A stretch of 64,000 bases of DNA, from contig JAJPIP010000033.1 in the NCBI GenBank assembly GCA_021324655.1, positions 1 to 64,000 on the forward strand, read 5' to 3'. Made by a program: the position numbers and the translations under genes. Shown here one piece after another: positions 9,990-55,897 of the stretch. Within the stretch, counting starts at the first letter, position 1. Each line of letters begins with the position of its first letter. Source of the stretch: Pseudomonadota bacterium (GTDB lineage: Bacteria; Chloroflexota; UBA5177). Below the pieces are notes generated by a model. It was not told where the DNA came from. It saw only the letters and a program-made list of their open reading frames with translations, and searched no databases.

Positions 9990-11267
9990 TCAGTTGGGAG
10001 GACGCGCCACTGCTATGTAGTGTTTGATTGGCCATACTCCGGGCGGCGGATTGGTCAAGTTATCATTCCATTGCCACACCGCGTAGTTTCCATCGGCGGA
10101 CCCCTCCGGGTACATCGGTCCGGCGTACACCCTTCCTTTGTCCAGAATGTAGACACGGTGGCTGGTCAAGCCATAGGCGTCGATTCGCGAGGAGCTATGC
10201 GCATACCAGACGAGGCTATCCTGCAGCAGGGTTGGCGAATAGTCGCATTGGGTCCAGGGCTGACCCGGCCCGGCCCGGCAGGCGGCGGAGGGATCCTTCG
10301 GGTCGTGCTTCGCCCGCCGACTGACCATGACCGTCGCGCCGGTCTTCAGATCGAGCAGCCAGATGGCACCGGGGGCAAACCGGTCGGGCGCCTCCTTCCA
10401 CGCGATGTACCGCCCGTTCGTCGTGGGAACCGATGAGAGGTGGTTCGTCGTCAGTTGAGTAACCCGACCGGCCGGGAAGTGCTCGATGAGGAGGTCGGTG
10501 CCGTTGACGTTGTAGGTGGGGGGCCCGCCATCGACGCGGGAGGGACAGGTTCCCTCCTGCATCCAGACCGCGAACCGAATGTGTGGCGCAATGGCCGGCC
10601 AGGCCTGATTGCAGGGAGCCTGCGTGGTGTAGAGGGTCGTCGTCCTGCCACCAGGAAGCCGTTTCATGCGTATCGACGAGACCCAGTGCCCGGCGCCGTT
10701 CGGTGAGGTCACGCAGTGCGCCAGGCACGTGGTCACCGCCCACACGACCGTATCGCCCTCGAGCGCCCACGTCGGCGTGGCCCAGTCATAGGGCGGGTGG
10801 CCCGAGGTCTTGCTCGAATCGACCAGGAAGTGCCCCCCGGTCCCGCGGTTCATGGCCCAGAGCTGCCACGTATAGCCGCCCTCCTCCCACACAAGCCAGT
10901 GCCGAGACATCACGACGCCGTTGAACAAGTTGTAGTCAGGCGGGCGATTCACGGCGATAACCCGTGGGTGAAACGGGTGAACGGGCGATGTATAGAGGTC
11001 GACGTCGCAGGGCTTGTGGAAATCGCAATTGGTGGCGCTCCACACGACCGTGTCCCTGTAAACACGGGGCAGATCGACATAGCGTTGGGGCACGAGAAAG
11101 TGCACGACGCGCGGCTGAGCAGGAGCGGCGCCGGACGCCGCTCCTGCTGCTCCTAGGATGAGCATACCCGCGACCGCAGCTGCGGCTATGCCCCAGGTCA
11201 CCCGCCGGACGACCAGTCGTCTGCGTCGGGATAACGGTCCGTCTCGCCGGGGGCTACCAGAGATCAT
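9990..11267 (-). CDS. Exported propeller-like protein of unknown function
   Basis: A 425-aa protein with a basic N-terminus and one long hydrophobic segment (ITWGIAAAAV-type through ILGAAGAASG) that reads as a signal peptide or anchor. The mature part has repeated strand patterns such as DTVVWS, HWLVWEEG, DTVVWAV, RYIAWKE and DSLVWYA spaced about 50-60 residues apart. This suggests a beta-propeller of TolB-like blades. Paired cysteines within blades fit an extracellular location. Its ATG overlaps the end of the C39-like gene by 14 bases, so the two are probably co-translated. I do not recognise a specific family. Confidence 0.7.
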   Translation of the reverse strand: MISGSPRRDGPLSRRRRLVVRRVTWGIAAAAVAGMLILGAAGAASGAAPAQPRVVHFLVPQRYVDLPRVYRDTVVWSATNCDFHKPCDVDLYTSPVHPFHPRVIAVNRPPDYNLFNGVVMSRHWLVWEEGGYTWQLWAMNRGTGGHFLVDSSKTSGHPPYDWATPTWALEGDTVVWAVTTCLAHCVTSPNGAGHWVSSIRMKRLPGGRTTTLYTTQAPCNQAWPAIAPHIRFAVWMQEGTCPSRVDGGPPTYNVNGTDLLIEHFPAGRVTQLTTNHLSSVPTTNGRYIAWKEAPDRFAPGAIWLLDLKTGATVMVSRRAKHDPKDPSAACRAGPGQPWTQCDYSPTLLQDSLVWYAHSSSRIDAYGLTSHRVYILDKGRVYAGPMYPEGSADGNYAVWQWNDNLTNPPPGVWPIKHYIAVARPPN

Positions 11268-41236: not shown

Positions 41237-43027
41237 ATGCGAGATGCCAACACTGTTCTGGGAGTCATCCGCGATCGTGGCACCAAGGGGTTGCCGCTGG
41301 AGCGCGTGTATCGCCTCCTTTTTAACCCGGACCTGTTCCTCCTGGCCTACGGGCGTATCGCGCGCAATCGCGGTGCACTGACGCCCGGAGCGACGGAGGA
41401 GACTGCGGATGGGATGTCACTGGCCAAGATCGGGACCCTCATCGAGCAGTTGCGCTCGGAGCGGTTCCGCTGGACGCCCGTGCGGCGCGTCTACATCGAA
41501 AAGAAGAACTCGACCAAGAAGCGCGCCCTGGGGCTGCCCACCTGGTCGGACAAGCTGGTTCAAGAAGTCGTTCGGCTCATTCTGGAAGCCTACTTCGAAC
41601 CACAATTCTCCGCCCGATCCCACGGCTTCCGTCCCGGACGGGGCTGCCACACGGCCCTGAAAGGCATCCACCGCAGTTGGAACGGGACCACCTGGTTCAT
41701 CGAGGGCGATATCAGCCAATACTTCGACAAACTCGATCACCAGGTGTTGGTCGGCATTCTCGCCGAGCAGATCCACGACGGCCGCTTCCTGCGGCTGATC
41801 GCGGATCTGCTCAAAGCCGGATACCTGGAGGATTGGACGTTCAACACCACCCTGAGCGGAACCCCGCAGGGAGGAGTGGTGAGCCCGATCCTGGCCAACA
41901 TCTACCTCGATCGCTTCGACAAGTGGGTTGAGACCACGCTGCTCTCTACATACAACCGGAAAGCAAAGCGGGACGACAACCAGGCATACCACCGTCTCCT
42001 CAGCCTGGCGTACCTCCGGGATAAGAAGGGACTCTACCAAGAGGCAGCGGCACTGCGCAAGCAGGCCAAGCAGCTTCCCATTGGAGACCTGACGGACCCG
42101 GAGTATCGCAAGCTGCGGTACCTGCGGTATGCCGATGACTTCCTCCTTGGCTTTACGGGACCACGGGATGAGGCCGAACGGATCAAACAGCACCTCCGGG
42201 ACTTCCTGAGCGCCACGCTCAAGCTGGAACTCTCCGAGGAGAAGACGCTCATCACCCATGCGCGTACAGAAGCTGCCAGGTTCCTCGGCTACGAGATCAG
42301 CACCTTACAGGACGACACCGCGCGCACGTCGACCGGACGGCGCCGCATCAATGGCGTGATCGGTCTGAAGGTGCCCCTCGACGTGGTCAAAGAACGATGC
42401 CGCCGCTACATGAAACACGGCAAACCGGTCCACCGCCCGGAAATCCTGTACGACTCAGTCTTCAGCACCGTGCAGCGCTACCAGGTGGAGTACCGGGGCA
42501 TCGTCGAGTACTACCGGTTGGCCTACAATCTCCACCGCTTCAATGAACTGAAGTGGGTGATGGAGCAGTCGTTGACGAAGACGCTGGCCGCGAAGCTGAA
42601 GATCAGCGTTGCCAAGGTCTACGACCACTTCGGCACCACACTGCAGACGCCTGACGGCCCGTATAAAGGGCTCCAGGTGATCATCGAGCGGACGGATCGG
42701 AAGCCACTGGTAGCTACCTGGGGCGGCATCAATCTCCGGCGCAACCTCACCGTGGTACTGAATGACCAGCCGGCACGCATCTGGAACAACCGAACGGACC
42801 TGGAACAGCGGTTACTGGCGAATACCTGCGAGCTCTGTGGCTCACAGGAAAACGTCCAGGTACACCACATCCGGGCTATGAAGGACCTCCGGAAGCGCGA
42901 CCGGACCGAGAAACCGGCCTGGGTCACGGCGATGGCGGCACGCCACCGCAAGACCCTCGTGGTCTGTCTACAATGCCACACGGATATCCAATACGGACAT
43001 CCGAGACACAACACGAAGACCGGATAG
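41237..43027 (+). CDS. ltrA: Group II intron-encoded protein (reverse transcriptase/maturase/HNH)
   Basis: A 596-aa protein. RT domains include GFRPGRGCHTAL, the catalytic YADD in LRYADDFLLGF and GTPQGGVVSPILANIYLD. The maturase X region follows (VEYRGIVEYYRLAYNLHRFN). The C-terminus has an HNH nuclease motif with CELCGS, VHHIRAM and CLQC. All expected parts are present, so it is probably functional for splicing and target-primed insertion. Confidence 0.93.
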   Translation: MRDANTVLGVIRDRGTKGLPLERVYRLLFNPDLFLLAYGRIARNRGALTPGATEETADGMSLAKIGTLIEQLRSERFRWTPVRRVYIEKKNSTKKRALGLPTWSDKLVQEVVRLILEAYFEPQFSARSHGFRPGRGCHTALKGIHRSWNGTTWFIEGDISQYFDKLDHQVLVGILAEQIHDGRFLRLIADLLKAGYLEDWTFNTTLSGTPQGGVVSPILANIYLDRFDKWVETTLLSTYNRKAKRDDNQAYHRLLSLAYLRDKKGLYQEAAALRKQAKQLPIGDLTDPEYRKLRYLRYADDFLLGFTGPRDEAERIKQHLRDFLSATLKLELSEEKTLITHARTEAARFLGYEISTLQDDTARTSTGRRRINGVIGLKVPLDVVKERCRRYMKHGKPVHRPEILYDSVFSTVQRYQVEYRGIVEYYRLAYNLHRFNELKWVMEQSLTKTLAAKLKISVAKVYDHFGTTLQTPDGPYKGLQVIIERTDRKPLVATWGGINLRRNLTVVLNDQPARIWNNRTDLEQRLLANTCELCGSQENVQVHHIRAMKDLRKRDRTEKPAWVTAMAARHRKTLVVCLQCHTDIQYGHPRHNTKTG

Positions 43028-43039
43028 TAAGACACTGGA

Positions 43040-43074
43040 GAGCCGGATGCTGGGATAACTGGCACGTCCGGTTC
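43040..43074 (+). ncRNA. Group II intron domain V
   Basis: The 35 bases fold with an eight-base outer helix (GAGCCGGA with TCCGGTTC) that includes the catalytic AGC triad, an internal bulge, and an inner helix with a short GATAA loop. This is the most conserved part of group II introns and lies 13 bases after the IEP stop. Confidence 0.85.
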
Positions 43075-43120
43075 GGAGGGGGGCCGTTGGAAAAGTACCT
43101 GAACCGAAAGGAGTCTCACA

Positions 43121-43254
43121 TGCGTCAACCTAACACCGGATTGGAAGTGCTACTCGCTATTGTGATGCTGGTCCTTGCTCCCGTGTGGATCAGCGTCTCA
43201 GTACTGGCGGGAGTTGTCTTCTACCGACGGTACAGGCAGCACAAGGGGCGCTAA
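43121..43254 (+). CDS. Small membrane peptide in intron domain VI loop
   Basis: 44 aa with one hydrophobic helix (LLAIVMLVLAPVWISVSVLA) and a basic tail (YRRYRQHKGR). AAGGAG lies six bases before the ATG. It is inside the 182-base loop of domain VI, between GGCCGTTGG (43082-43090) and CCAGCGGCC (43273-43281). I recognise no family. The ribosome site and membrane helix support it, but it is short. Confidence 0.5.
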
Positions 43255-43289
43255 TCGGGATCAGGCAACTCGCCAGCGGCCTACCCTAC

Positions 43290-43764: not shown

Positions 43765-44550
43765 TCAGTAACAGACCCACATTGCGTAGTAGACGCAGAA
43801 GCCGCAGACCGCGTAGACGCACTCGAGCCAGGCGGGTCCCGCCCACAGGCAGCCAATGGCGCCGGGGCCACAGCACCCCACCAGCGCCTTCCAGAAGCAG
43901 CTCCAGTAGTCATCGACCACGACGATCTGCCCGTTCACGACCGAGAGCCCGGTCGTCTTGATGTACTGGGAGGCCGCCTCCAGACTGTCGGTCGGGCCAG
44001 AGTCACGGAGGTAGTGGATGATATCGCCCTGGACGCGCTCCTCACCGGAGACCGTGCGCGACCAGGCGATGAGCGCATGGTCCTTGCTGCCGTCCCGGGC
44101 CGTGAAGACGAGGGCCAGCATCTCCGAGCCGTCCGGCCGGATCGCACCTTGCGAGTGCCGAGTTGAGAGCTGGAAGCCGTGCCGCTCGATGTAGGAGCGG
44201 ATCAGCCGAGCATCCGGGTTGCGCATGGCCGCGCCAACAAAGGGGTGGAGCTGAGCGCCGCGCAGCGGGGTGATGCCTGTTGTATTCTTGGCATCCGCTC
44301 GAGCGGTCGCGGGCAAGAAGCTCCCGGCGACGAGGGCGGAGGAGAGAGCCGCGGCTTTCGCGAGGAGTTCCCGGCGCGAGAACTCTCCGCTCTGTGAGAG
44401 CACCTGCTCGACCTCGCCGTCGGTCGCACCGTGCTGGCGGGCGAGCACGAGATAGCCGGCGGCACAGCCCTCACATCCCTCCTGCAGCTTGGTCCGGGCC
44501 ATGCGGAGTGCGTCCCGGCGGATCTTCCTCGAATCGCGTGCGCGTGTCAT
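43765..44550 (-). CDS. Tat-type Cys-rich precursor, possible halocin C8-like bacteriocin
   Basis: A 261-aa protein. A short N-terminal domain has a GCEGC pair. Then comes a twin-arginine-type signal (FSRRELLAKAAALSSALVAG) ending near ATARA. A soluble domain of about 120 residues follows. The last 45 residues hold eight cysteines in a hydrophobic Gly/Trp/Tyr-rich tail (CFWKALVGCCGPGAIGC). Halocin C8 precursors have the same order: Tat signal, immunity domain, Cys-rich toxin at the C-terminus. The match is one of layout, not of clear sequence similarity. Confidence 0.55.
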   Translation of the reverse strand: MTRARDSRKIRRDALRMARTKLQEGCEGCAAGYLVLARQHGATDGEVEQVLSQSGEFSRRELLAKAAALSSALVAGSFLPATARADAKNTTGITPLRGAQLHPFVGAAMRNPDARLIRSYIERHGFQLSTRHSQGAIRPDGSEMLALVFTARDGSKDHALIAWSRTVSGEERVQGDIIHYLRDSGPTDSLEAASQYIKTTGLSVVNGQIVVVDDYWSCFWKALVGCCGPGAIGCLWAGPAWLECVYAVCGFCVYYAMWVCY

Positions 44551-45228: not shown

Positions 45229-45420
45229 TCATGGGTGCCAGAGAACCAGGATGACTCCGAATATCGAGCCGACAATGCCGAGGAAACCCAGCACCTTGAA
45301 CAGCCAATGGTCTGTCACTACTTCCACGAAACCGTGAACGGTTGCTCCGTACTGCTCGCGAAAGCTGGTGTTTGTCTTCAGGGAATCCTCTTCGGCAAGA
45401 ACCGCGAGGCTGTGAAGGAG
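45229..45420 (-). CDS. Possible small membrane protein or remnant
   Basis: On the minus strand a frame reads FREQYGATVHGFVEVV and then DHWLFKVLGFLGIVGSIFGV to a stop at 45229. It looks like the C-terminus of a small membrane protein. I find no convincing start upstream, so it may be a fragment. The plus-strand frame over the same bases looks like its shadow. Confidence 0.3.
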   Translation of the reverse strand, partial: LLHSLAVLAEEDSLKTNTSFREQYGATVHGFVEVVTDHWLFKVLGFLGIVGSIFGVILVLWHP

Positions 45421-45431
45421 AATTAACTTCG

Positions 45432-45701
45432 GTGGACCTCTTGACGATCTTCGGCGCCTTGGCGGTGACCGCGATGCTCGTGTTCTATGCCCTGGAGAGC
45501 CGCTCCGCCGCCTTCGTGCTGGCCTTCGCCGCCGCCTGTCTTGCGTCCTCCGTCTACGGCTTCCTGCAAGGCGCCTGGCCCTTCGGCGTGGTTGAGTTCA
45601 TCTGGTCGGGCGTTGGTCTCCGTCGCTGGTGGATGCGTACGCACTACCTTCCAGGCCACGTGGGTGTTCCCGACGGTACCGGGCCGGACAACCGGCCTTG
45701 A
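45432..45701 (+). CDS. Small membrane protein, paralogue A
   Basis: 89 aa with two or three membrane helices. The core LESRSAAFVLAFAAACLASS, followed by VYGFLQGAWPFGVVE, is nearly identical to the protein at 55.6-55.9 kb. The start is GTG at 45432 with AAGGAG 11 bases upstream. It borders the mercury block, and the second copy ends the arsenic block. Function unknown. Confidence 0.65.
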   Translation: MDLLTIFGALAVTAMLVFYALESRSAAFVLAFAAACLASSVYGFLQGAWPFGVVEFIWSGVGLRRWWMRTHYLPGHVGVPDGTGPDNRP

Positions 45702-45715
45702 CGTCTCTTCGTGTC

Positions 45716-47059
45716 TCAGAGCTGCTTCCGCAATTGCTGAATCGGGGAGAGGTAGAGGCGAGTAAAGGTCGGGAAGGCCAGGATGGTATCGTCGAGAACG
45801 TCGATGGGAACCCGAGCACGGATGGCGAGCGTCGCCCATTGGATCCACTCGCCCGCGAGCGGACCCGCTGCCCAGGCACCCACCAGCACCTGGTCGTGTC
45901 GGTCCGCCAGCAGGTGTAACGCTCCCTCGTATCCCTTCCCGTAGGTATCGGTACGAGCCGCTTCCTCCAGCTCTGCGTGCGCCTGCACGATCTCCACACC
46001 CTCCGGCGCTGTGGCGGGGTCGGTCACACCCACGGAGGCGATCTCGGGATCGGTGAAGGTCACCGCCGGGATGTCGCTGTAGTTGGCGGAACGGGGCTTA
46101 CCGAGGATATCGGCAGTGGCGATCTGGGCCTGATAGGCGGCGACGTGCGTGAACATGGCGACACCCGTCACATCCCCGACCGCCCAGACGTTCTCCGCCG
46201 CCCGGCAGTGCTCGTCGATGTGGATGCCCTGCTCGGTCGTTTTCACGCCCACCCGATCCAGGCCCAGGCCATCGACCAGCGCGTGCCGGCCGGTCGCGAC
46301 CATGACCACCTCTGCGGTGAGTCGCGTCCCATCGTCCAGCGTGACGGTTCGGCCGGTCTCACCGCACTCGACTTTGGTAGCCTTCTTGCAGAGGTGGAGC
46401 GTGATCCCGTCCCTCTCGAAACGCCGCTGCAGGTATGTCGCCGCATCGGGACTCTCGTGTCCCAGGAGTTGGTTCGCCTCTTCCACGATCGTCACCGTAG
46501 CGCCGAAACTCCGAAACACCTGTCCCAGCTCGCTGCCGACCGCCCCTCCGCCCAGGATTATCACGCTCTTCGGTACCTCCTGGAAGGAAGTGCCTTTGCG
46601 GTTGGTCCAGTATCCGGCCTCCTTGAGCCCCTCGATCGGCGGGATGCTGTTTTCCGAGCCGGTCGAGACGATGATGCGCCTGGTCTGGAGCGTGTGACCG
46701 TTGACCTGCACCTGACCCGGTCCAGCGATACGGGCCTCACCTCGGAGGAAGGCGATCCCGGCCTTCTGGAAGCCCTCAACCTGCTTCGCGTCATCCCAGT
46801 CCCGCACCATCCAGTTGCGGTAGGGGGCGACCTGGGAGAAGTCGAGCTGAGGCGTGCTCGTGCCCGGTTCGTGCTCCGCATCCTGTGTGATGGTTCCGGG
46901 CCGCAGGAGCGTCTTGCTCGGCATGCAGCCCCAGTAGGCGCAGAGGCCGCCAACCAGTTCCTTCTCGACCACAGCCACCGTCATGCCTGCATCGTTGAGC
47001 GCCCAGGCGACGCCTTCGCCACCGGTTCCCGCGCCGATCACCACCGCGTCGTACTCCAC
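45716..47059 (-). CDS. Flavin-dependent disulfide oxidoreductase (mercuric reductase-like)
   Basis: A 447-aa protein. FAD-binding IGAGTGGEGVA is at the start, the redox-active pair in GGLCAYWGCMPSK, an NAD(P) motif in ILGGGAVGSELG and a second FAD segment in WAVGDVTG. There is no N-terminal metal-binding domain and no C-terminal Cys pair. The usual HPT of the dimer-interface histidine reads FPT, so the reaction may differ from lipoamide or mercuric reduction. The start is GTG at 47059, ten bases after the selenocysteine glutaredoxin-like gene. It is likely to work with it. Confidence 0.8.
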   Translation of the reverse strand: MEYDAVVIGAGTGGEGVAWALNDAGMTVAVVEKELVGGLCAYWGCMPSKTLLRPGTITQDAEHEPGTSTPQLDFSQVAPYRNWMVRDWDDAKQVEGFQKAGIAFLRGEARIAGPGQVQVNGHTLQTRRIIVSTGSENSIPPIEGLKEAGYWTNRKGTSFQEVPKSVIILGGGAVGSELGQVFRSFGATVTIVEEANQLLGHESPDAATYLQRRFERDGITLHLCKKATKVECGETGRTVTLDDGTRLTAEVVMVATGRHALVDGLGLDRVGVKTTEQGIHIDEHCRAAENVWAVGDVTGVAMFTHVAAYQAQIATADILGKPRSANYSDIPAVTFTDPEIASVGVTDPATAPEGVEIVQAHAELEEAARTDTYGKGYEGALHLLADRHDQVLVGAWAAGPLAGEWIQWATLAIRARVPIDVLDDTILAFPTFTRLYLSPIQQLRKQL

Positions 47060-47069
47060 GTCGTCCCCT

Positions 47070-47306
47070 TTATCCCGCCAGCAAGGCGTCTAGCTTTGTC
47101 CGATCGAATCCCACCACGACCTCACCGTCGATGACGGTGACCGGCGTGGTCATGTAGCCGAGCTTTTCCAGGTCGCCCATCGCGTCCTCATCGGCCGCTA
47201 CATCTCGTGTCGTGTACGAGACGCCTCTCTGTGAAAGAAACTCTTCCACTTTGGTACAGAAGAGTCAGCCGCCACTCTGGATGTAGACGACGATCTGCTT
47301 GCCCAT
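47070..47306 (-). CDS. Glutaredoxin-like protein with probable selenocysteine (UxxC)
   Basis: A 78-aa thioredoxin-fold protein if the TGA at 47267-47265 is read through. The motif is GG-U-LFC, with Sec14 and Cys17 in place of CxxC. Flanking sequence on both sides reads as one glutaredoxin: IVVYIQSGG before, and TKVEEFLSQRGVSYTT, MTTPVTVIDGEVVVGF after. A cis-Pro (TTP) is present. A hairpin beginning 16 bases after the TGA fits a bacterial SECIS. It is followed by the flavin reductase and lies in the mercury block. SelA, SelB and tRNA-Sec genes are not in the window. Confidence 0.75.
47231..47249 (-). promoter_or_regulatory. SECIS-like hairpin
   Basis: GTGGAAGA pairs with TCTTTCAC to give eight pairs (one G-U) around a GTT loop. 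The loop starts 23 bases after the TGA and has G first. Known bacterial SECIS rules ask for a G among the first two loop bases and a spacing of roughly 16-37 bases, and both hold. Confidence 0.6.
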
Positions 47307-47316
47307 CCCCTGCCTC

Positions 47317-47601
47317 TCACCCACGTCGGACCCCTTCAACCACCTCCGATGCCGCTGGGTACTCGATCGCCTCCAGCGCCTCGCGGATCGTTGCCAGGCC
47401 GATACGCTCCGGATCGTAAAAGACGATGAGCTTCCCGATGGCCTGCTCGATCACCACGGCATCGATACCGGGCCAGGATGTTAGTTCCTGGGTAATAATG
47501 TCCTCGGCCAGGGTGGCACAGCAGCCGGATGCCACCACCGGGTCCTCGATGAGGCGGGGGACGGCGAGAGTGATGCTGGCCGACCTGTTAGGGGCGAGCA
47601 T
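47317..47601 (-). CDS. HMA-like heavy-metal-binding protein
   Basis: 94 aa. The fold pattern (ITLAVPRLIED, IDAVVIEQAIGKLIVFYDP, IREALEAIEYPA) is that of a heavy-metal-associated ferredoxin-like domain. The expected CxxC is replaced by an adjacent GCC. It probably carries metal in the cytoplasm to the reductases. Its start overlaps the membrane protein gene upstream by 14 bases. Confidence 0.65.
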   Translation of the reverse strand: MLAPNRSASITLAVPRLIEDPVVASGCCATLAEDIITQELTSWPGIDAVVIEQAIGKLIVFYDPERIGLATIREALEAIEYPAASEVVEGVRRG

Positions 47602-48103
47602 CTTGCCGTCCCAACCAGAGCAGGATCGAGGCGGCCAGTGCCGCTGTCACGCCGAAGACGAGATGGCCGACGAAGGCGCGGAGGTGGGTAACCAGCGGGT
47701 AGGCGCTGTCCGGCGCGCTGAAGCCAAAGGCTGGCGTCATCCCTTCATCCACTACGACCCACATTACGGTGCCGCTGATGGCACCGGCGAAGAGCGGGGT
47801 GAGTTTGGTGCGCCGTTGGAAGACGGCCGTCAGGGCGCCCCAGCCCATGCCCAGGCCATAGTGGAAGAAGATCGTGCCCACGGTCTTGAGCTGCTGCTCG
47901 TCCAGGTGCAGGCCGAGCACCTCCGTGGTCCTATGCGCCGCGATGTCGTAGGGAGGACCGGGCCGCACCCGGTCCTCCTGCTGTCGGGCCTCCGCCGATT
48001 CCATCGCGTACAGCTTCATCTCCACCGGCTCCATCACTTTGGTGCCCACGTAGCCGCCGATCAGGCCGGCAGCGATCTCGGCTACGAGCTGTTTCATCCT
48101 CAT
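47588..48103 (-). CDS. DUF1440/YagU-like membrane protein
   Basis: 171 aa with about four membrane helices (IAAGLIGGYVGTKVMEPVEM; FAGAISGTVMWVVVDE; LVFGVTAALAASILLWLG). The build resembles DUF1440/YagU proteins. The start at 48103 has AAGGAG eight bases upstream. It heads the minus-strand half of the mercury block and is divergent from the MerT-like gene. Confidence 0.55.
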   Translation of the reverse strand: MRMKQLVAEIAAGLIGGYVGTKVMEPVEMKLYAMESAEARQQEDRVRPGPPYDIAAHRTTEVLGLHLDEQQLKTVGTIFFHYGLGMGWGALTAVFQRRTKLTPLFAGAISGTVMWVVVDEGMTPAFGFSAPDSAYPLVTHLRAFVGHLVFGVTAALAASILLWLGRQDARP

Positions 48104-48278
48104 GACCGCATCTCCTTGTTGCGTGTACGAGGACACCGCAAGATGCATACCTGTATCAGAATTGCCTGATGTCCGTCAGCGCGCCACACCGGTGCGGCGC
48201 CTATTCGGAGAGGAGAGCGATGGGGCCTCGGACTCCTCAGCTTGTCTCCATCACATATTCATGATATTCTCGGTCAGC

Positions 48279-48311: not shown

Positions 48312-48563
48312 ATGGCGAGAGATGGGGATCGAGCAGGGCTGGGTGCCGGCGTTCTGGCGGTCGTCGCCATGACGCTGTGCTGCGCGGGCCCGCTCCTCAT
48401 CGTCGCCCTCGGGGCGTTGATCGCGGCTGCTGGCTGGGCGGTCCTCGGGCTTAGCGCCGGAGCCATCCTCCTCATCCTCGCGATGGCCCTTGCCGTGTAC
48501 CGCCGGATTTCCCGACCGCCAGCCGCATCACCACCCTCCCCATCGTCACAGCACACGGACTAA
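48312..48563 (+). CDS. MerT/MerF-like small mercury transporter
   Basis: 83 aa with two membrane helices. The first contains a vicinal cysteine pair, MTLCCAGPLLIVALGAL, as in MerT/MerF/MerC. It would bring mercuric ion into the cell for MerA. GGGGTGAG lies upstream of the ATG. merA follows after 11 bases. Confidence 0.75.
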   Translation: MARDGDRAGLGAGVLAVVAMTLCCAGPLLIVALGALIAAAGWAVLGLSAGAILLILAMALAVYRRISRPPAASPPSPSSQHTD

Positions 48564-48574
48564 GGAGGATGCCC

Positions 48575-50224
48575 GTGACCGATACCATACAGATGAAGAT
48601 TGCGGGTATGACCTGCAGTCACTGCGAGCAGACGGTCGAGCAGGCCCTCTCGACGGCAGGGGCGACGGATGCATCTGCCGACTTCCGACGCGGTCAGGCC
48701 ACATTCCAGTGGTCCGACGACAAGGATCTCGGGAGCGCCAAGGATGCGGTCGCCCAGGCCGGCTACCAACCGGAGGGCGTCCAGGTGCTGAAGGGGAGCA
48801 GCGAGCGAGCGAGAGCACGATCTGACGGTGGAGGTTGGAACCTCGCTATCCTCGGCTCCGGCTCCGCGGCCTTTGCGGCGGCTATCCGGGCCCGAGATGC
48901 GGGGGCACGCGTCGTCATGATCGAGCAGAGCACCCTAGGCGGGACCTGCGTCAACGTCGGCTGCGTTCCCTCCAAGGCCACGGTGGCCGCCGCCGATCTC
49001 TACTATCGGGCCGGACATAACCCGTTCGGCGGCACGAGCACTCAAGCTGCCGGCGTTGATCTGAAGGCGCTCGTCGCGCAGAAGGGCGACCTGGTGAGCC
49101 AGATGCGCCGCGAGAAGTACGCCGACCTGGTGGAGGAATATGGCTGGACAGTGCTCCACGGCCGCGCCGCCTTCGCCGATGACACCACCCTGATGGTTGA
49201 CGGCGAGCCCCTCTCCGCTGACCACTACCTCATCGCGACCGGCGCCTCTCCTGCGATCCCGCCCATTCCAGGCCTTCGCGACGTAGGCTATCTGACCAGC
49301 ACCACCGCCCTGGAGCTCACTGAGCTGCCGGAGTCCCTGGTCGTGATCGGCGCCAATGCCATCGGCCTGGAGATGGGCCAGCTCTTCCTCCACCTGGGCT
49401 CGAGAGTGACCTTTCTGGAGGTGGTGGACCGCATTGCACCGTTTGAGGAGCCGGAGATCAGCGCGGCGCTGACCAAGGTGCTGACCGACCAGGGGGCGGA
49501 GGTGCTGGCCAGCGCCCACATCCTCCAAGTCGAGAGACACGGCGAACAGCGCCGAGTACAGGTCGAGATGGGACCTAAGACGCGCGTCATCGAAGCAGCC
49601 CAGGTGCTCGTCGCGACGGGGCGGCGTCCGAATACGGCGCATCTCCAACTCGATCACGCCGGGATCAAGACCGATGGGCGCGGCAGCGTCACCGTGGACG
49701 AGCACCTGCAAACCAGCAATCGCCGGGTCTGGGCCGCTGGCGACGTGACCGGGGCGCCCCAGTTTGTCTACGTCTCCGCCTACCAGGGCACGGTTGCCGC
49801 CGACAATATGCTCAACAGCAACAGCCGCATCGTCGATCTCTCGGCCCTGCCCCGCGTCACCTTCACCACACCGCAGATCGCGAGCGTCGGAATGACCGAG
49901 CAGGACGCGGCGCGCGAAGGCTACGCGCCCAAGACCTCGCTCCTCCCCCTCAGCGCCGTCCCCCGCGCGCTGGTCAATCAGGAGACGCGCGGTCTCTTCA
50001 AGCTGGTGGCCGACGAGGTCACCGACAAACTGCTGGGCGTCCACATCCTGGCGGACAACGCCGGTGACGTCATCTATTCCGGCGTGCTGGCGATCAAGTT
50101 CAACCTGACTGTCACCGACATTACCACCACCTTCGATCCGTATCTAACCATGGCCGAGGGCTTCAAGCTGGCGGCGCAGACCTTCGGCAAGGACGTCAGT
50201 AAGCTGTCCTGCTGCGCGGCGTAA
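48575..50224 (+). CDS. merA: Mercury(II) reductase MerA
   Basis: A 549-aa protein from GTG 48575. An N-terminal HMA domain has GMTCSHC. The FAD motif is ILGSGSAAFAAAI, the active-site pair GGTCVNVGCVPSK, and the NADPH motif VIGANAIGLEMG. The C-terminal vicinal Cys pair (SKLSCCAA) hands mercury to the active site. It reduces Hg(II) to volatile Hg(0). The ribosome site AAGGAGG touches ATG 48569 directly but is six bases before GTG 48575, so the GTG is preferred. Confidence 0.95.
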   Translation: MTDTIQMKIAGMTCSHCEQTVEQALSTAGATDASADFRRGQATFQWSDDKDLGSAKDAVAQAGYQPEGVQVLKGSSERARARSDGGGWNLAILGSGSAAFAAAIRARDAGARVVMIEQSTLGGTCVNVGCVPSKATVAAADLYYRAGHNPFGGTSTQAAGVDLKALVAQKGDLVSQMRREKYADLVEEYGWTVLHGRAAFADDTTLMVDGEPLSADHYLIATGASPAIPPIPGLRDVGYLTSTTALELTELPESLVVIGANAIGLEMGQLFLHLGSRVTFLEVVDRIAPFEEPEISAALTKVLTDQGAEVLASAHILQVERHGEQRRVQVEMGPKTRVIEAAQVLVATGRRPNTAHLQLDHAGIKTDGRGSVTVDEHLQTSNRRVWAAGDVTGAPQFVYVSAYQGTVAADNMLNSNSRIVDLSALPRVTFTTPQIASVGMTEQDAAREGYAPKTSLLPLSAVPRALVNQETRGLFKLVADEVTDKLLGVHILADNAGDVIYSGVLAIKFNLTVTDITTTFDPYLTMAEGFKLAAQTFGKDVSKLSCCAA

Positions 50225-50237
50225 TCAGGAGGAAACC

Positions 50238-50882
50238 ATGCTGAACGATGCCGATGTAGCCGCGACCTGGCTCGACCGGTCCACGCTGCCGCCCCTGGAG
50301 GAATGCGTGCTGTCCGAGGCCTTCTGGCGGCTCCTTGCCGGGAACCCTGTCCTCCCGACCGATATCTGCGGTGCCACAAACCTCTTGCCGCAAGATGTGG
50401 AGAACATCCTGACGACCCTGCAAGCCGAGCGCTGTCTGCGGCGCGATGCGTCAGGAGCCGTGGTGGCAGCTCGGGGTCTGATGACCGCTCCCTCCACGCA
50501 TCTCCTGGTCACCAATCGGGGCAGCGTCTACACGCAATGCACGGTCGATGCCGTCGGCATTCCGGCGGCGCTCGGTCTGGCGGCGGGGGTCGAGGACCAC
50601 TGCGCCTCCTGCGGCAACCGCGTGGACGCGACGATCAGCCAGGCGCGCGACGTGACGACTGATCCGGCCTCGGCCGTCATCGTGATGGCGCGCTGCGACT
50701 CGTGGGCGGAAGACGGCATCCCGACCGTCTGCCGCGAGACGAACTTTTTCTGCTCGCGCGATCATGCCGACGCGTGGCAGCGGGAGCGGGCGACCCTGCC
50801 TGGGACGATTCTTTCTCCCTCGGAGGCGGCTGCGATCGGGCGGAGGATCTGGGGCCCGTTCGCGCGGGAGGAGCAGCCATGA
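50238..50882 (+). CDS. merB: Organomercurial lyase MerB
   Basis: A 214-aa protein. The N-terminal winged-helix-like region precedes the catalytic domain. The first active Cys and Asp are in YTQCTVDAVGIP and the second Cys is in NFFCSRDHADAW, matching Cys96/Asp99/Cys159 of MerB. It cleaves carbon-mercury bonds and passes Hg(II) to MerA. AGGAGG precedes the ATG. An extra CASC pair lies at about residue 117. Confidence 0.9.
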   Translation: MLNDADVAATWLDRSTLPPLEECVLSEAFWRLLAGNPVLPTDICGATNLLPQDVENILTTLQAERCLRRDASGAVVAARGLMTAPSTHLLVTNRGSVYTQCTVDAVGIPAALGLAAGVEDHCASCGNRVDATISQARDVTTDPASAVIVMARCDSWAEDGIPTVCRETNFFCSRDHADAWQRERATLPGTILSPSEAAAIGRRIWGPFAREEQP

Positions 50883-55206: not shown

Positions 55207-55622
55207 GGCGAGAGCGTGCCCTTTTCTTATGCACCCATAACTCGGCCCGCAGCCAGATGGCGGAAGGTCTCCTCCGTCACCTTGCCAGCGACCGTTACGA
55301 GGTCTTCTCGGCCGGCACAGAGGCGACCCAGGTCCGGCCCCTCGCGGTCGAGGTGATGCGCGAGCTGGGGATTGACATCTCGCAGCAGGAGAGCAAAACG
55401 CTCGATCGTTATCTCCATCAACCCTTCGACGACGTTATTACCGTCTGTGATCAGGCCAACGAGGCCTGCCCCGTCTTCCTCGGCGCCAAACGCCGCTTGC
55501 ACTGGAGCTTTCCCGACCCCTCGAAGGCCACCGGGACGAAGGAGGAGCAGTTGGCAGTTTACCGTCTCGTCCGGGACGCCATCCAGGAGCGCATCCAGGA
55601 CGAGCTACTGGCGACGAAGTAA
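55203..55622 (+). CDS. arsC: Arsenate reductase ArsC, low-molecular-weight phosphatase type
   Basis: A 139-aa protein. The P-loop is CTHNSARSQMAEG, and ITVCDQANEACPVF carries the second and third redox cysteines of the thioredoxin-linked family. WSFPDPSKATG gives the catalytic Asp. It reduces arsenate to arsenite for Acr3. Confidence 0.93.
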   Translation: MRRERALFLCTHNSARSQMAEGLLRHLASDRYEVFSAGTEATQVRPLAVEVMRELGIDISQQESKTLDRYLHQPFDDVITVCDQANEACPVFLGAKRRLHWSFPDPSKATGTKEEQLAVYRLVRDAIQERIQDELLATK

Positions 55623-55627
55623 TTCGC

Positions 55628-55897
55628 ATGAATCTCTTGACGGCGTACGGTGCCCTTGCCGTGACGGCCATGCTCGTGTTCTATACGCTGGAGAGCCGCT
55701 CCGCAGTCTTCGTGCTGGCCTTTGCTGCAGCCTGTCTGGCGTCGTCAGCCTACGGCTTTCTCCAGGGCGCCTGGCCCTTCGGCGTGGTTGAGCTTATCTG
55801 GTCGGGCGTTGCCCTGCGTCGGTGGTGGCTCCGGCGCACATCAACTCGGCACAGCGCGGAGGAGCGGGACGACGACCACGCTGTAGGCCTCAAATAG
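55628..55897 (+). CDS. Small membrane protein, paralogue B
   Basis: 89 aa with LESRSAVFVLAFAAACLASS then AYGFLQGAWPFGVVE, nearly the same as the protein at 45.4-45.7 kb. It starts five bases after the arsC stop. Its duplication beside both metal blocks suggests that it travels with them or was copied from one to the other. Confidence 0.7.
   Translation: MNLLTAYGALAVTAMLVFYTLESRSAVFVLAFAAACLASSAYGFLQGAWPFGVVELIWSGVALRRWWLRRTSTRHSAEERDDDHAVGLK

Follow-up and report, generated by a model that had tools for sequence, protein, structure and literature searches.

A glutaredoxin gene in a mercury island

The window (the whole 64,000-nucleotide stretch that was analysed) carries what looks like a four-gene operon, running on the minus strand from 48148 to 45716, in which genes for a DUF1440-like membrane protein, a small HMA-like protein and a glutaredoxin interrupted by one in-frame TGA are followed by one for a flavin disulfide reductase (Table 1). 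The genes are closely packed: the first overlaps the second by 14 bp, the HMA-like gene ends 10 nt ahead of the glutaredoxin gene, and the flavoprotein gene starts (with GTG) 10 nt beyond the glutaredoxin stop, gaps that fit a frame read through the TGA. Divergent from this operon are merT/merF-like, merA and merB genes (48312-50882). The preliminary description had placed a flavin reductase and merA/merB beside the glutaredoxin, and all three are there; as regards membership of a mer operon, a MerA scoring over its curated cut-off lies close by, on the divergent side.

Table 1. Positions of the features discussed (in the window unless another locus is named)
Feature	Position	Strand	Remarks
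Predicted Sec-containing glutaredoxin, 78 aa	47070..47306	-	GGU(14)LFC, UxxC; TGA taken as Sec
In-frame TGA, probably read as selenocysteine	47265..47267	-	Common to >40 homologues, Cys in 24 others
Bacterial SECIS-like hairpin	47231..47249	-	8 bp, loop GUU
Flavin disulfide reductase, MerA/lipoamide dehydrogenase superfamily	45716..47059	-	CAYWGC redox pair; Pfam Pyr_redox_2 180 bits
Small HMA-like protein (MerP-type fold)	47317..47601	-	GCC motif; Pfam HMA E 0.0033, below cut-off
DUF1440-like membrane protein, first gene of the operon	47588..48148	-	28 bits, below cut-off
MerT/MerF-like small membrane protein	48312..48563	+	Pfam MerT 27 bits, below cut-off 32.9
MerA, mercuric reductase, with N-terminal HMA domain	48569..50224	+	TIGR02053 576 bits, cut-off 454
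MerB, organomercurial lyase	50238..50882	+	Cys (TGC) at Cys159 position; Pfam MerB 83.3 bits
TGA-bearing merB, beside merF and Sec-glutaredoxin gene	L061:3134-3754; L065:3134-3754; L135:about 10443-11060		

The window MerB does not reach the cut-offs set for the MerB equivalogs of NCBIfam, and its QCTVD and VCRETNFFC segments align to solved MerB, providing the Cys-x-x-Asp and Cys159-type residues. The HMA-like protein is modelled with modest confidence (pLDDT 65) as a beta-alpha-beta structure, and in another Chloroflexota genome (L117) the gene for a homologue follows that for MerA directly. The flavoprotein reaches 313.7 bits against the MerA model, below the cut-off of 454, and is thus without a mercury-specific score. 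A paralogous gene with a 64% identical product lies at another place in the chromosome (C52:128936-130273), and the flavoprotein's closest homologues in the phylum have no Sec-glutaredoxin within 1.5 kb; for these two reasons we rejected the idea that flavoprotein and glutaredoxin form a conserved unit.

Some other features of the surroundings may be mentioned. Two direct copies of 218 nt (82% identical, from a small membrane-protein gene; 45420-45637 and 55616-55833) stand 10.2 kb apart, one on either side of the mercury/arsenic island, possibly marking a duplication or insertion, and a group II intron with a reverse transcriptase/maturase and HNH domain lies beside the island (41237-43289). 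A search for plasmid relatives gave distant matches only (<50% identity). The minus strand at 43765-44550 encodes a protein of 261 residues, which may have a Tat-type signal and whose C-terminus is very rich in Cys and aromatic residues; it resembles a processed Cys-rich secreted peptide, and matches no Pfam family over cut-off.

The in-frame TGA and its homologues

The glutaredoxin translation is MGKQIVVYIQSGG-U-LFCTKVEEFLSQRGVSYTTRDVAADEDAMGDLEKLGYMTTPVTVIDGEVVVGFDRTKLDALLAG (minus strand, 47306-47070). Its sole internal stop is the TGA, at the first residue of the UxxC site, and its terminator is TAA. In the preliminary description this TGA was seen as replacing the first Cys of a CxxC motif (GG-TGA-LFC), with good protein sequence on either side, and as a probable selenocysteine codon; the evidence that follows upholds each of these points, and all the computational tests that it suggested gave favourable results. 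The match to Pfam Glutaredoxin (PF00462) spans the TGA and, at 50.2 bits against a gathering cut-off of 22.9, makes the protein a member of that family. Between the window and nine homologues, the frame 3' of the TGA gives dN of 0.21-0.40 and dS of 0.9-3.7 (dN/dS about 0.07-0.28), and is under purifying selection. With the TGA as a stop, there would be left a 13-residue peptide and some 200 nt of conserved, untranslated frame within an operon.

We searched 400 Chloroflexota genomes and 84,980 named species. Homologues in which the corresponding codon is also TGA (about 45-69% identity) came from Chloroflexota, Methylomirabilota (NC10), Acidobacteriota, Nitrospirota, Armatimonadota, Desulfobacteraceae and others, and the searches also gave the Cys homologues for which the preliminary description had called: the site holds either TGA or Cys. 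In some other Chloroflexota (L024, L028, L031-L033, L038, L040-L042), the Sec-glutaredoxin has about 170 residues and ends in a PDZ-like domain. In methanogens, Cys homologues form fusions of about 390 residues with a flavoprotein that resembles thioredoxin reductase (L086, L087, L088, L089, L091, L092), which shows that a flavoprotein is a natural partner for this glutaredoxin family.

A covarying hairpin beyond the TGA

A stem-loop at a suitable distance, with G first in its loop, had also been claimed, and it is present: GTGGAAGA-GTT-TCTTTCAC begins 15 nt past the TGA. As RNA it reads GUGGAAGA-GUU-UCUUUCAC, with one G-U pair; the form general to the family, aligned on the TGA, is GUGAAAGA-GUU-UCUUUCAC, at nt 16-34 after it. 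The published model of the bacterial SECIS (PMC13188914) has a G in the first two loop positions, a loop 16-37 nt after the UGA and a stem of 4-16 bp. The window hairpin conforms, its GUU loop beginning at nt 24 and its stem having 8 bp. In the isolated 45-nt RNA, a rival hairpin that takes up the nucleotides directly after the TGA is slightly favoured (-10.2 versus -8.1 kcal/mol), but when the first 12 nt are left out, to mimic a ribosome covering them, the hairpin described here is the minimum-energy fold.

For the window alone, 5.6% of synonymous-codon shuffles yield all eight pairs, and it is at the level of the family that the hairpin evidence is strong. At least seven of the eight pairs are present in 40 of 47 distinct TGA genes, where synonymous shuffling leads one to expect 10.1, and in none of the 24 Cys homologues. 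Among 38 sequences, 94.1% of cells are paired and five of the eight pairs show changes on both sides, the second pair being A-U in 14, U-A in 13 and C-G in seven; in controls in which the position was slid, pairing drops to 40-74%. Covariation is 0.264 compared with 0.107 in shuffles, and none of 500 shuffles was as high (a count that is no probability, the sequences being related). The three alternative pair types, together with the loss of the hairpin from Cys genes, are hard to explain unless the hairpin is genuine.

How is the TGA decoded?

The window's own genome has all four components of the Sec machinery that the preliminary description had named: tRNA-Sec (75.4 bits, with ARAGORN in agreement), selA (488 bits), selD (378 bits) and selB (283.5 bits), the last broken by a contig end, with its C-terminal piece possibly on another contig. 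The selD gene has an in-frame TGA of its own (RCAG-TGA-ASKVG). tRNA-Sec was found in four of the five family genomes searched, this one counted.

Might the TGA be decoded as Trp or some other residue under a changed code? The open frame is the sole point in favour of this. TGA terminates seven of the 12 neighbouring genes checked (including those for the FAD reductase, the HMA-like protein and MerB), and the homologues show Cys at the site, not Trp. As TGA is an ordinary stop in the neighbourhood, recoding is local, and we reject a changed genetic code as vanishingly improbable. It is also very improbable that the gene encodes no selenoprotein, its TGA being either a true stop or the result of a sequencing error or of a pseudogene mutation. 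The genome is admittedly a draft, and the case for Sec is built on sequence, but TGA recurs at the homologous codon in distinct genomes from several phyla, and it is followed by a covarying hairpin and a frame under purifying selection, in a genome with Sec machinery; on these grounds we reject sequencing error.

We infer, then, that this is almost certainly a true selenoprotein gene, with Sec inserted at the UGA. Insertion would be by SelB and Sec-tRNA-Sec, guided by the hairpin just 3' of the UGA, and the product would be a protein of glutaredoxin fold with a Sec-x-x-Cys active site. Automatic annotation that takes TGA as a stop would miss the glutaredoxin gene, and would shorten the TGA-bearing MerB proteins described below.

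Relationship to known selenoprotein systems

Sec-containing glutaredoxins are an established family of prokaryotic selenoproteins (PMC13188914). Like the protein considered here, the known examples (PF00462, UxxC; clostridial ones, for instance) have the glutaredoxin fold with Sec for the first Cys, but they typically have QPGUxFC, whereas the present protein belongs to a different subfamily, found in Chloroflexota, Methylomirabilota and others, and its genes lie in mercury operons. The best curated matches are the Uxx-star/YruB-type models of NCBIfam (NF041212, NF041211, NF041114, TIGR02196), which share the fold and the position of Sec; the subfamily falls below their cut-offs, the window protein exceeding none (65.5 versus 88.55; 46.4 versus 66).

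A MerB-type lyase is also paired with a Sec protein of thioredoxin fold in the SAO (Sec-assisted organometallic) system, which comprises the MerB-like SaoL, known in a Sec-containing form, and the thioredoxin-like SaoT (PMC13188914). The present genes differ in having canonical mer partners instead. SaoT is absent from the model matches of the window glutaredoxin, and the window MerB scores 22 bits against a cut-off of 140 for SaoL; by these measures the genes do not qualify as an SAO system.

Linkage to merB in a Methylomirabilota-type clade

At 12 of 12 loci of one clade of Sec-glutaredoxins (L055, L059, L061-L069 and L073, nearly all labelled Methylomirabilota), tblastn and Pfam revealed MerB, MerF and/or MerT-like genes nearby, commonly in the order arsR, merB, (merF), Sec-glutaredoxin, (merF or merT). 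Whole-genome searches extended this: each of the 11 merB genes that they found in the genomes of these loci adjoins a Sec-glutaredoxin gene, one of the 11 pairs spanning the two ends of a single 11,080-base contig. On that contig (L135:1-11080), one end holds merB and the opposite end merF with the Sec-glutaredoxin gene, in keeping with the order at the other loci; the contig is probably a circular element carrying the whole set, and a terminal overlap was looked for and not found. In an Armatimonadota genome (L056), two merB genes are on a different contig from the Sec-glutaredoxin gene, which counts against any general rule linking the two.

No MerA over the curated cut-off was found in the 11 clade genomes searched (best score 400 bits against 454), which are drafts whose completeness is unknown. 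Of 13 draft genomes holding such glutaredoxin genes, ten yielded tRNA-Sec and three did not.

Three of the merB genes (those of L061, L065 and L135) have an in-frame TGA aligned to the catalytic Cys159 of solved MerB. Each frame is open beyond the TGA, and a hairpin of 8 bp with G first in its loop, CUUCUUCU-GUAC-GGAAGAAG, lies about 20 nt downstream. The L135 gene is strongly divergent from the other two after the TGA (dN 0.40-0.44, dS 0.70-1.12), so that purifying selection there is shown weakly. Against SaoL, the TGA-form MerB proteins score 72-87 bits, below the cut-off of 140.

Did these mercury associations arise once? On a tree of 80 columns, poorly resolved, the most parsimonious reading is of two separate associations, that of the window and that of the clade; the Methylomirabilota linkage could be a single ancestral event. 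That a gene of this type also adjoins mercury genes in bacteria of an unrelated group suggests that selenium is used to handle mercury, and this independent, conserved linkage to merB in another phylum strengthens the mercury idea of the preliminary description.

A possible role in mercury detoxification

MerB cuts the carbon-mercury bond and retains Hg(II) on its active-site cysteines; its removal requires a dithiol. Selenium has a very high affinity for mercury, and, to our knowledge, selenoproteins linked to a defined mercury operon are few. For MerB to release Hg(II), two thiols are required, or else the N-terminal dithiol of MerA (NmerA), which strips the metal better than monothiols do (PMC4525700); about half of the genomes with MerB have no MerA, and how MerB then sheds its Hg(II) is an open question (PMC8261052). 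In Synechocystis, glutaredoxin 1 binds and reactivates a MerA-like enzyme (PMC4307280), and so is a glutaredoxin that works with a MerA-like flavoprotein, although it is of the Cys type, contains no selenium and acts on glutathionylated MerA. Given the need of MerB for thiols or a dithiol, and the ability of a glutaredoxin to reactivate a MerA-like enzyme, a Sec-x-x-Cys glutaredoxin encoded beside merB is a plausible acceptor of Hg(II).

Taken whole, the explanation that we consider likely, from the comparison of genes, is that of a Sec-glutaredoxin gene whose product would be a selenol/thiol carrier of mercury; that it serves in this way within the mercury-detoxification operon is, considered separately, an inference that we rate as somewhat better than even. 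The Sec/Cys pair would capture Hg(II) from MerB, from transporters or from damaged proteins, and pass it to MerA or the neighbouring MerA-like flavoprotein, whose CAYWGC pair would re-reduce the selenenyl-sulfide form of the glutaredoxin. Alternatively, the Sec-glutaredoxin might reactivate or repair enzymes blocked by mercury. In the Methylomirabilota operons in which MerA was not found, it would replace the N-terminal dithiol domain of MerA, doing the job of NmerA, which takes Hg(II) from MerB, though NmerA is of a different (HMA) fold and has no selenium.

Against this must be set the possibility, to which we give distinctly less than even weight, that the protein is a real Sec-glutaredoxin but a general thiol/peroxide redoxin, repairing oxidized or metal-blocked proteins, and that it lies in a mercury island because such islands gather stress genes. 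No mercury genes occur in the stretches seen around the homologues most similar to the window protein (66-69% identity), so this protein may be a general redoxin that has been carried along; the closest Sec homologues adjoin unrelated genes, such as NifS/IscU or arsenic genes. Moreover, the MerA of the window already has an HMA dithiol domain, so that a glutaredoxin is not obviously needed there, and elsewhere Sec-glutaredoxins are general reductants, for example for methionine sulfoxide reductase, according to the title of a paper cited in PMC9312934. A general redoxin accords poorly, however, with the repeated merB/merF/merT linkage across a whole clade, and with the tight operon in the window with HMA-like and MerA-like genes.

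What is new here is the recurring tie to merB, in genomes from which MerA is apparently absent and in which MerB is sometimes itself recoded. Returning to the mercury-carrier reading, we may tentatively, with somewhat less than even confidence, envisage a branch of mercury detoxification that works with selenium: in such mer operons a Sec-glutaredoxin would relieve MerB of its Hg(II), in place of, or beside, the dithiol domain of MerA, and some Methylomirabilota would have MerB with Sec at the catalytic Cys159 position. If true, this would explain how MerB turns over in genomes without MerA, and the conserved merB/Sec-glutaredoxin pair provides a concrete, testable candidate for the means by which MerB is freed of Hg(II).
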